A stretch of 57,403 nucleotides of DNA, taken from positions 1-57,403 of the forward strand of contig NKIM01000033.1 in the NCBI GenBank assembly GCA_002255955.1, in the 5' to 3' direction. Source of the DNA: Burkholderiales bacterium PBB2. Lineage in GTDB: Bacteria; Pseudomonadota; Gammaproteobacteria; Burkholderiales; Burkholderiaceae_C. The translations under genes were made by a program, and so were the position numbers. The notes beneath the pieces were generated by a model. The model was not told the DNA's origin, made no database searches, and saw only the letters and a list, made by a program, of their open reading frames with translations. Shown here piece after piece: positions 28,044 to 45,950 of the stretch; position 1 is the first letter of the stretch, and every line of letters begins with the position of its first letter.

Positions 28044-28130
28044 TGGTGCGCGGGGCCGGACTCGAACCGGCACGCCGGTGAAGGCGTCAGGACCTAAACC
28101 TGGTGCGTCTACCAATTTCGCCACCCGCGC
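28044..28130 (-). tRNA. tRNA-Leu (anticodon UAG)
   Basis: 87 bases with encoded CCA. Acceptor GCGCGGG/CCCGCGC, anticodon loop TTTAGGT giving UAG, a long variable arm, and T-arm CGGTTCGAGTCCG. It ends 27 bases before the tig start codon on the same strand, so it may share a transcript with tig. Confidence 0.95.
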
Positions 28131-39473: not shown

Positions 39474-41015
39474 TCAGCCCTGCGCCGCAACCCGCTCGGT
39501 CTTGCTTTGCAGCTTGTTCAGCGCGCTCAAATATGCCTTGGCCGAGGCGACCACGATATCGGGATCGGCCCCCACGCCATTGACCACGCGACCGGCATGC
39601 TGCAAACGCACCGTCACCTCGCCTTGCGATTCTGTGCTGCCGCTGGTGATGGCATTGACCGAATAGAGCAGCATCTCAGCGCCACTTTGGACGGTGGATT
39701 CGATGGCGCGTAGAACCGCATCCACCGGCCCGTTGCCGCTGCTCTCGGCCCGGTGTTCTTGCGCGCCGACCGCAAACACCACACTGGCGTGCGGCTGCTC
39801 GCCCATCTCGGAGCGCTGCGACAGCGCGACCAGGCGGTAGTGCTCCTGGTCCGAGCTGACCGACTCGTCCATCACCAGGGCGATGATGTCCTCGTCGAAG
39901 ATCTCGTTCTTGCGGTCGGCCAGATCCTTGAAGCGCACGAAAGCAGCATTGACCTCGGCCTCCGACTCGAGCGCGATGCCCAACTCTTGCAGGCGCTGCT
40001 TGAAAGCATTGCGGCCACTGAGCTTGCCGAGCACGATCTTGTTGGCGCTCCAACCCACATCTTCGGCGCGCATGATCTCGTAGGTGTCACGGGCCTTGAG
40101 CACGCCGTCCTGGTGGATGCCGGAGGCATGGGCAAAAGCATTGGCGCCCACCACCGCCTTGTTGGGCTGCACCACAAAGCCGGTGGTCTGCGAGACCAGG
40201 CGCGAGGCGGCGACGATGTGCGACGCGTCGATATTGCAATCGAGGCCGAAGTAGTCGCGACGGGTCTTGACGGCCATCACCACTTCTTCCAGCGAACAGT
40301 TGCCCGCACGCTCGCCCAGTCCGTTGATGGTGCATTCGATCTGACGCGCTCCGCCGATCTTCACGCCGGCCAGGGAATTGGCCACGGCCATGCCCAGGTC
40401 GTTGTGGCAGTGCACGGACCAGATCGCCTGATCCGAGTTGGGCACGCGCTCGCGCAGGGTCTTGATGAAGTTGCCGTAGAGCTCCGGGATGGCATAGCCC
40501 ACGGTGTCCGGGATGTTGATGGTGCGGGCGCCTTCCTTGATCACCGCTTCGATCACGCGGGCCAGGAAATCCGGATCGGAGCGGTAACCGTCTTCCGGCG
40601 AGAACTCCACATCGCCGGTCACATTGCGGGCAAAGCGCACGGCCTGGATCGCCTGCTCCAGCACCTGCTCACGTGTCATGCGCAGCTTCTTCTCCATATG
40701 GAGCTCGCTGGTGGCGATGAAGGTGTGGATGCGCGAGCGCGCCGCGCCCTTGAGCGCCTCGGCCGCACGGGCGATGTCGCGATCGTTGGCGCGGGCCAGC
40801 GAGCAGATGGTGCTTTCGCGCACAGCGTCGGCAATCGCCTTGACCGCCTCGAAATCACCGTTCGAGGAAGCTGCAAAGCCCGCCTCGATCACATCGACCT
40901 TGAGCCGCTCGAGCTGACGCGCAATGCGTAGCTTTTCGTCCTTCGTCATCGAGGCGCCGGGCGATTGCTCGCCGTCGCGCAAGGTGGTGTCGAAGATGAT
41001 CAGCTGGTCAGCCAT
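39474..41015 (-). CDS. leuA: 2-isopropylmalate synthase
   Basis: 513 residues. First committed step of leucine synthesis: acetyl-CoA plus 2-ketoisovalerate to 2-isopropylmalate. N-terminal HMGL-like TIM barrel with [10 protein letters not shown] and the metal-binding [10 protein letters not shown]-terminal LeuA allosteric domain (~380-510), the site of leucine feedback in the family. GGAG seven bases before the ATG at 41015 fixes the start. Transcription is probably attenuated by the leader peptide and terminator at 41044-41187. Confidence 0.97.
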
Positions 41016-41043
41016 GAGGGTCTCCAAGTGGCTCGGGTTGAGG

Positions 41044-41088
41044 GACAGAAAAACAAAACGGCCCGCGAAGCAGATGCTTGGCGGGCCG
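41044..41088 (-). terminator. Transcription attenuator (terminator) upstream of leuA
   Basis: On the minus strand CGGCCCGC and GCGGGCCG (41081-41088 and 41059-41066) enclose a second stem AAGC/GCTT, followed by TTTTGTTTTT. It lies 40 bases after the leader peptide stop and 44 before leuA. GGCCCG of its 5' arm is complementary to CGGGCC inside the leader ORF (41134-41139), which allows an antiterminator. Confidence 0.8.
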
Positions 41089-41127
41089 GTGATGTGCGAG
41101 GAAACTGGTGTGTAACGACGTGCGCGA

Positions 41128-41187
41128 TCAGCGGGCCCGGGGCTCGATGGCTAGTAGCAGCAGTGCGGATGCGGTAGTCGACGACAT
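41128..41187 (-). CDS. leuL: leuA leader peptide (attenuation)
   Basis: 19-codon ORF encoding [19 protein letters not shown]. Four consecutive leucine codons (CTG CTG CTA CTA, 41152-41163) include two CTA codons, rare in GC-rich genomes. It is followed by a terminator hairpin and then leuA on the same strand. This is the classic layout of leucine attenuation: ribosome stalling at Leu codons when charged tRNA-Leu is scarce would free the downstream CGGGCC to pair with the terminator 5' arm. No clear Shine-Dalgarno is seen; a TATATT hexamer seven bases before the ATG suggests the mRNA may start at or near the ATG. Confidence 0.78.
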
Positions 41188-41194
41188 GGGCTTG

Positions 41195-41223
41195 AATATA
41201 GCACGCGAAATACACGCCAAAGC
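41195..41223 (-). promoter_or_regulatory. Possible promoter of the leuL-leuA unit
   Basis: On the minus strand, a TATATT -10 hexamer at 41195-41200, with only a weak -35 (GCTTTG) 17 bases upstream. It lies directly after the pssA stop codon. If used, transcription would start within a few bases of the leader ATG. Confidence 0.4.
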
Positions 41224-41232
41224 GCGGGCGCC

Positions 41233-42081
41233 TCAGTCGTGCAAGCCCTTTTCATCGGGCTCGTCGGTCGATGTGGCGATCACGCTGACCGGCTTGCCCT
41301 TCATGCGCTTGTAGCCGTAAACCACATAGCCCGAAAGGCCGTAGGCACAGAACAAGCCAAAGAGCACGCGCGGCGGGTCGATGTTGATAACGGCAATCCC
41401 CAGCGCAATCGCCACGATCACGATGAAGGGGACCGAACGCTTGAAGCTCACATCCTTGAAGCTGTAGAACGGCGCATTGGTGACCATGGTCAGGCCCGCG
41501 TACAGCGTGAAGCCAAACGCCACCCAGGCCAGCGAAGGCGTGCTGTGGATGGCCTTGAAGCCGGCGTCATCCACCACCCAGACCAGGCCCATCACCAGGG
41601 CCGCGGCGGCCGGGCTGGGCACACCCTGGAAGAAGCGCTTGTCCACCACCGCGATATTGGTGTTGAAGCGCGCCAGACGCAGGGCGGCACCGGCGATGTA
41701 AACGAAAGCCGCGAACCAGCCCCACTTGCCCAAGCCAGACAAGGCCCAGATGTACATGATCAGCGCCGGCGCGGCGCCGAAGGAGACCATGTCAGAGAGG
41801 CTGTCCATTTGCTCGCCGAAGGTGCTCTGCGTGTTGGTCATGCGCGCCACACGGCCGTCCAGGCTGTCCAGCACCATGGCCGCAAAAATGCCGTAGGCCG
41901 ATTGTTCGAAGCGGCCATTCATTGCCATCACGATGGCGTAAAACCCGCTGAACAGGGCCGCCAAGGTGAAGAGATTGGGCAGGATGTAGATGCCCTTGCG
42001 GCGCCGGCGCACCGGCTCGTGCGCCTCGATGTCCTCATCGTCAGGCAGGGCTGCGGGCAGTGGATTCTTGGGATCGGTCAT
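41233..42081 (-). CDS. pssA: CDP-diacylglycerol-serine O-phosphatidyltransferase
   Basis: 282 residues. Integral membrane enzyme making phosphatidylserine, the precursor of phosphatidylethanolamine. The CDP-alcohol phosphatidyltransferase motif is intact: DSLDGRVARMTNTQSTFGEQ followed by MDSLSD. About eight membrane helices follow a basic, cytoplasmic N-terminus (EPVRRRRKGIYILPNLFTLA). The start is the ATG at 42081. It lies between ilvC and leuA, the common betaproteobacterial arrangement, but terminators on both sides suggest independent expression. Confidence 0.94.
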   Translation of the reverse strand: MTDPKNPLPAALPDDEDIEAHEPVRRRRKGIYILPNLFTLAALFSGFYAIVMAMNGRFEQSAYGIFAAMVLDSLDGRVARMTNTQSTFGEQMDSLSDMVSFGAAPALIMYIWALSGLGKWGWFAAFVYIAGAALRLARFNTNIAVVDKRFFQGVPSPAAAALVMGLVWVVDDAGFKAIHSTPSLAWVAFGFTLYAGLTMVTNAPFYSFKDVSFKRSVPFIVIVAIALGIAVINIDPPRVLFGLFCAYGLSGYVVYGYKRMKGKPVSVIATSTDEPDEKGLHD

Positions 42082-45881: not shown

Positions 45882-45950
45882 TCAAAAAACTTGGCACCCG
45901 GGTCGGGCAAGCCAGTCTGAGACCAGTGACTTCATTGTGCGAAGCAGCAT
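45882..45950 (-). CDS. Possible ilv leader ORF
   Basis: 22-codon ORF, MLLRTMKSLVSDWLARPGCQ then VF, 84 bases upstream of ilvB on the same strand. Six of 22 codons are Leu or Val (no Ile), a mild enrichment. Its last codons run through a terminator-like hairpin (45884-45911). An internal ATG (MKSLVSDWL) is an alternative start. It might be an attenuation leader, but the amino-acid signal is far weaker than in the leuA leader. Confidence 0.3.
   Translation of the reverse strand: MLLRTMKSLVSDWLARPGCQVF
45884..45911 (-). terminator. Terminator-like hairpin in the ilvB leader
   Basis: On the minus strand CTTG-CCCG-ACC-CGGG-TGC-CAAG followed by six Ts: an 8-bp stem with a 3-base bulge. Located 87 bases before the ilvB ATG, it could attenuate the operon. 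Confidence 0.5.

Follow-up and report, generated by a model that had tools for sequence, protein, structure and literature searches.

The leu leader of Escherichia coli encodes a 28-residue peptide with four leucines and attenuates leuABCD, and putative leaders before branched-chain amino acid genes have been reported across various Gram-negative bacteria (PMC6123439). In Sinorhizobium meliloti, the 5' end of the trpL leader RNA (rnTrpL) coincides with the ATG of the leader ORF (PMC7298713), and in Streptomyces lividans the Leu-rich leuL1 and leuL2, located before leuA and leuS respectively, are transcribed leaderless (PMC8079986). For actinobacterial leuA, whose element lacks obvious attenuator parts, a pseudoknot has been proposed (PMC1262725).

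Here, we describe a leader preceding leuA in a 57,403-nt stretch of DNA from Burkholderiales bacterium PBB2 (the window), and assign a probability of roughly 0.88 to the reading that it is a ribosome-mediated transcription attenuator, which senses leucine through Leu-tRNA (chiefly the reader of CTA) and controls 2-isopropylmalate synthase (IPMS). The leader would very probably let the cell switch leuA on when leucine is short. No leuA attenuator in betaproteobacteria is named in the titles and abstract beginnings covered by our literature searches.

All parts of the locus lie on the minus strand. The regulated gene, leuA (39474..41015, ATG at 41015; NCBIfam NF002087, 895 bits against a cut-off of 729), has its own GGAG in front and lies downstream of pssA (41233..42078; TIGR00473, 111.5 bits against a cut-off of 107), which is read in the same direction, with the NCBIfam-confirmed ilvB, ilvH and ilvC further upstream. 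Between pssA and leuA, 45 nt past pssA, begins a leader ORF of 19 codons plus TGA (41128..41187, ATG at 41187), whose start is predicted to lie about 1–2 nt or less from the 5' end of the transcript. The ORF contains the putative regulatory codons CTG CTG CTA CTA (41152..41163), recognized by inspection and by their CTA bias, and its tail carries segment A, CGGGCC (41134..41139), the predicted 5' half of an antiterminator as judged from motif conservation and RNAalifold. Its partner, segment B (GGCCCG, 41082..41087), of which GCCCG is invariant in the aligned leaders, is common to the predicted antiterminator and to the 5' arm of an intrinsic terminator (41049..41088). The terminator stem joins CGGCCCGC (41088-41081) to GCGGGCCG (41066-41059) with inner AAGC/GCTT pairing, shows compensatory changes among relatives, and is directly followed on its 3' side by the T-run TTTTGTTTTT (41058-41049). 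ARAGORN places a tRNA-Leu(UAG), the expected reader of CTA, at 28044..28130. A reading made from the letters of the window (the sequence-only reading) had noted the 19-codon ORF with its four Leu codons on the leuA strand and the complementarity of CGGGCC to the terminator arm, and both are present as claimed; the hairpin and T-run before leuA were likewise confirmed, but not their distance of 44 bases, as the T-run lies 43 nt (start) to 34 nt (end) upstream of the leuA ATG.

Elsewhere in the window, upstream of ilvB (45882-45950), we noted by eye a short ORF, MLLRTMKSLVSDWLARPGCQVF, that overlaps a GC hairpin followed by TTTTTT, and the gene preceding this ORF is apparently on the opposite strand. 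This arrangement is possibly a second attenuator.

The predicted fold of the leader as a whole was no more stable than that of shuffles (z −0.89, with 30 of 200 shuffles equally good), and a two-hexamer sigma-70 scan of 40800-41500 returned no promoter site, which led us to put forward an extended −10 element instead (TGC-TATATT, 41195..41203, 7 nt before the leader ATG). Because the single-sequence test could not settle whether the leader is real, we built the case on comparison with relatives. Upstream regions of leuA were gathered from 99 genomes (96 with a match) and from 80 loci of named organisms, including Roseateles, Acidovorax, Limnohabitans, Polaromonas, Variovorax and Hydrogenophaga; the nearest named locus belongs to a Roseateles metagenome-assembled genome with 94% LeuA identity. 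A filter demanding a Leu-rich ORF, a TA...T box 5–9 nt before its ATG and a terminator was passed by 102 of 145 upstream sets (96 once identical copies were removed), among them 67 of the 80 named loci.

To these we added a covariance model made from 74 of the 96 leaders, all from the window's family. It matched 9 of the 13 named loci that had failed the filter (7 at full length, 2 partial or cut by a contig end), including all four Variovorax loci, and left four (L090, L096, L099, L138) with no leader by either filter or model. Six further genomes (G004, G015, G027, G029, G039, G043) had failed because the filter covered only 1.5 kb of flank, and here the model found the leader 134–167 nt before an adjacent second IPMS-like gene; not all of the 43 failures among the 145 sets are true absences. 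Within the window's family, the source of its training rows, the model matched 366 of 399 genomes and 131 of 141 genera. Across a sample of 300 genomes of the order, 31 matched at E ≤ 0.01 and 11 at E ≤ 1e-10, with 8 of the latter from the window's family and 3 from one other family. In its own genome the leuA leader scored 79.8 bits and the next-best place 26.6 bits; a third match (L176) was rejected as a leader, being a terminator without one. Judged by this comparison of the pssA–leuA gap, which the sequence-only reading had proposed and in which the Leu-rich ORF and hairpin are indeed kept, the conserved leader and terminator before leuA are not a product of chance. Leaders are present at Roseateles, Acidovorax, Limnohabitans, Polaromonas and Variovorax loci, and leucine control of IPMS is likely in this large environmental family.

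Other families of the order presented a different picture. A distinct Leu-rich leader, often ending in ..LLLRPAR or similar, precedes leuA at several of their loci (L058, L060, L062, L063, L065, L066, L068, L070, L214, L217 and L219, and also L067, where no box was found), and downstream of these leaders we saw by eye C-rich sequence and no U-tract terminator. A box 6–10 nt before the ATG of a Leu-rich ORF was found in 17 of 36 other-family loci, in 31 of which the leuA start was located. It is conceivable that these leaders represent a Rho-dependent version.

CTA makes up 223 of 443 Leu codons in the leaders against 13 of 3038 in 80 leuA genes, an enrichment of about 100-fold, and 3 of 153 in the window's leuA, pssA, ilvC, ilvB and ilvH. 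A bias of this size suggests that the rare codon is the sensor, and would most simply be explained by decoding. By inspection, no part of the run CTGCTGCTACTAG can be paired with the GGAG in front of leuA.

We also asked which genes the leader accompanies. In 17 sets it lies 1.83–2.10 kb before leuA, ahead of an intervening gene for a second type of IPMS, and all six second-type genes scored (L105, L122, L171, L172, L173, L177) pass TIGR00970 with 751.7–786.8 bits against a cut-off of 697.4. Citramalate synthase was rejected as an identity for the gene between pssA and leuA, since these six genes, of which L105 and L122 come from loci of this kind, reached 63–78 bits with the citramalate synthase model, whose cut-off is 450. 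In three genomes (G036, G067, G549) the leader is placed before the second-type gene; G036 and G067 have the second type only, with no first-type LeuA match (best E about 1e-36 and 1e-40), and a further genome, G100, has two IPMS genes with one leader before each. As judged from these loci, the leader goes with IPMS genes of both types. The second type itself is carried by many relatives, often just ahead of leuA.

The distance between the box and the leader ATG is 6, 7, 8 or 9 nt in 38, 47, 9 and 2 of the 96 leaders, and thus 6–8 nt in 94 of them, and TGn, which was no selection criterion, precedes the box in 93. Scanning 0–29 nt upstream with a stricter box, TA[TC]A[TG]T, recovered offsets of 6–9 nt only (32, 41, 8 and 2 leaders), and none ahead of leuA's own start. 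A Shine-Dalgarno-like motif was found before 0 of 96 leader ATGs, a count that follows partly by construction from requiring a box 5–9 nt before the ATG, as opposed to 90 of 96 leuA starts. The box at this distance and the lack of a Shine-Dalgarno sequence indicate that the leader mRNA is probably leaderless, and support the earlier suggestion of a nearly leaderless mRNA with TATATT (41200-41195) just before the leader ATG. The pattern TGNTAYANT-N7-ATG occurs once in the window, where shuffles give an expectation of 0.01, and TGCTAYATT-N6-8-ATG twice in the 5.48-Mb genome against 0 in the backward control. A looser pattern with spacing 6 or 7 was not enriched genome-wide (6 places against 5 in the backward control), two of its six places being the leaders and the other four the beginnings of open frames 185 codons or longer. 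These four long open frames (L180-L183, on G000 contigs C35, C14, C55 and C87) start 6–7 nt after an extended −10-like box and are possibly leaderless genes, by a pattern that does not exceed its backward control.

The second place where the strict pattern occurs in this genome lies before aroG, the gene for DAHP synthase (L175, G000:C73:229280-229447, minus strand), where a leader rich in Phe, Tyr and Trp, MHSPKTYFFSFFWFSDRTGGREVSA, starts in the arrangement TGCTACATT-N7-ATG and is accompanied by a separate hairpin and T-run. Of 30 loci from relatives, counting the own genome and near-identical ones, 26 have a leader of this aromatic-rich kind with a box, and L200, L201, L202 and L213 lack it; these counts cover leader and box, the terminator being noted in the own genome. 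In 23 distinct aroG leaders, box and ATG are separated by 6 nt (6 leaders), 7 nt (14) or 8 nt (3), and 22 have TGn.

To examine the switch itself we turned to the 74 aligned leaders. All 74 share the terminator core GCCCG/CGGGC without variation, and outer stem pairs are altered on both sides in 30 and 14 sequences. Within the ORF tails, CGGG[CT] occurs in 86 of 96 leaders and is missing from 10; it is kept in three reading frames (frames 2, 0 and 1 in 57, 26 and 3 leaders), indicating that it is kept as RNA and that its letters are not conserved as amino acids. Its position is equally regular, as in 75 of the 86 the motif begins 16 nt (49) or 12 nt (26) ahead of the stop codon's end, within the stretch that a ribosome halted at that codon would mask. 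When the 3' arm of the terminator was cut from the alignment, RNAalifold yielded the A:B helix in both of the clades into which we had divided the leaders (28 and 46 rows). Immediately after the leader stop, alignment columns 116–122 show a conserved motif GCGCACG, which is TCGCACACGTC-like in the genomes that resemble Roseateles; one C of it is invariant in the 74 leaders, and it has no proven pairing partner.

We then modelled the window's RNA. Before segment C, which pairs with B in the terminator, is made, the probability of A:B is about 0.89 if the ribosome is absent or stalls at either CTA, and drops to 0 when it occupies UGA. In these models the antiterminator is exclusive of the terminator and can be blocked by a translating ribosome. 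In the full-length RNA the terminator prevails in every ribosome state (P about 0.9996), so the decision must fall during transcription, kinetically, and the predicted switch requires A:B to hold throughout the synthesis of C. The A:B helix comprises only about 5–7 pairs, and segments A complement their own B slightly better than swapped ones (17.1 against 16.2), with 17% of shuffled A segments pairing as well with B as the real one. Since A:B also forms without a ribosome (0.89), the prediction for untranslated RNA is read-through, except where A is sequestered in some other hairpin. Comparing the codons before or in the Leu run with the stop-codon region, we found signs of such a protector (1:2) hairpin in one clade (z −4.9 against −1.2 for the control). 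In the window's clade it did not exceed the control (−2.3 against −2.4), and we dropped it for the window.

Computation shows the parts, how far they are conserved and that they exclude one another; from this we infer a start site, stalling, a leucine response and a kinetic outcome that would follow each other in this way. RNA polymerase would start at the leader ATG, or a base or two from it, as the extended −10 spacing suggests, and a ribosome would load on the leaderless mRNA without a Shine-Dalgarno sequence, with hardly any delay after the first codon has emerged from the polymerase. When leucine is plentiful, the ribosome would pass CTG CTG CTA CTA, reach TGA and cover segment A, leaving segment B free to form the B:C terminator and stop transcription near 41049. 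Under a shortage of Leu-tRNA, it would instead stall on the Leu codons, A would stay open and pair with B once B emerges, and polymerase would read into leuA before C can displace A. The leader lends itself to studying how a ribosome that translates leaderless mRNA stays in step with the polymerase. Several findings strongly support leucine attenuation of leuA, as the sequence-only reading had proposed it: the Leu/CTA run, the terminator and the antiterminator segment are all conserved, and the leader accompanies IPMS genes.

Several of these observations bear on other explanations. The hairpin might merely terminate pssA and the Leu-rich ORF be a chance frame: a terminator after pssA would be ordinary, and a loose motif for the pssA C-terminus precedes the leader in 93 of the 96 sets. 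This is scarcely credible, given that the Leu run and its CTA bias are conserved and that nothing in the termination of pssA would require CGGGC in the tail of an ORF. The leader is also found away from pssA. In G067, which belongs to another family, its upstream neighbour is ahpC, read in the opposite direction; in G549 the recognizable upstream ORFs are by eye on the opposite strand as well; and the second IPMS locus of G100 has no pssA motif within the 546 nt examined.

Could leuA be controlled by an RNA-binding protein or ligand, or at the level of translation, with translation of the ORF incidental, as has been argued for the actinobacterial LEU element? Leader mutations of Streptomyces coelicolor leuA had effects reported as inconsistent with classical attenuation (PMC1262725), and the conserved GCGCACG past the stop codon has no proven pairing partner. 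We consider this very unlikely, since the leader carries a U-tract terminator (one that the 96 sets were selected for, and that the model also finds in 366 of 399 genomes of the family), the CTA bias speaks most simply for decoding, and the Leu run shows on inspection no match to the leuA Shine-Dalgarno sequence. Somewhat less remote, and still rather improbable, is that the terminated leader RNA of about 135 nt or its peptide also acts in trans, adding to attenuation in cis. The leaderless attenuator RNA rnTrpL of S. meliloti and its peptide peTrpL both do so (PMC7298713), and the invariant GGCCCG/CGGGCC and the conserved GCGCACG could be seeds. On the other side, the frame of CGGG[CT], and with it the peptide tail, differs among leaders, and three segments that must pair in two ways would be expected to be invariant in any case.

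Returning to leucine attenuation in cis, we tentatively extend it, at somewhat short of even odds, to the view that leaderless leaders are a family-wide device for amino-acid attenuation, serving both IPMS types and aroG, in which leucine sensing is private to the internal promoter. The latter would follow from a leader that is translatable only from RNA starting at its ATG. If true, transcripts running in from ilv–pssA would contain this sequence too, with no leader that can be translated, and leucine would not control them.

How, then, does this leader relate to those already described? With enteric leuL and the Rfam Leu_leader it shares a Leu-containing leader peptide and, by prediction, attenuation of leuA, and to this extent the enteric architecture invoked by the sequence-only reading applies. 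In other respects they differ: the window's leader has no Shine-Dalgarno sequence and an ATG at the predicted start site, its antiterminator segment lies inside the ORF tail, no protector hairpin is established, and Rfam Leu_leader gave no match at E ≤ 5 in 40900-41400 or at gathering score in the whole window. No Rfam family exceeded its gathering score at the leader, where four weak matches fell far below theirs. S. meliloti trpL has the leaderless start and the ribosome-dependent choice between terminator and antiterminator that are predicted here, but it responds to Trp, controls trpE(G) in an alphaproteobacterium, and has demonstrated trans functions (PMC7298713). S. lividans leuL1 is a Leu-rich leaderless leader before leuA and lacks a typical terminator (PMC8079986). 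In the actinobacterial LEU element the Leu run is proposed to pair with the leuA Shine-Dalgarno sequence, whereas the window's leader combines a U-tract terminator with a simple predicted A:B helix and a Leu run without such pairing. Leaderless leaders are thus already known in Sinorhizobium and Streptomyces, and each feature has a precedent; the combination in the window's family is an RNA element that matches no Rfam family, and its distinctive trait would be its leaderless, family-wide use at two pathways.
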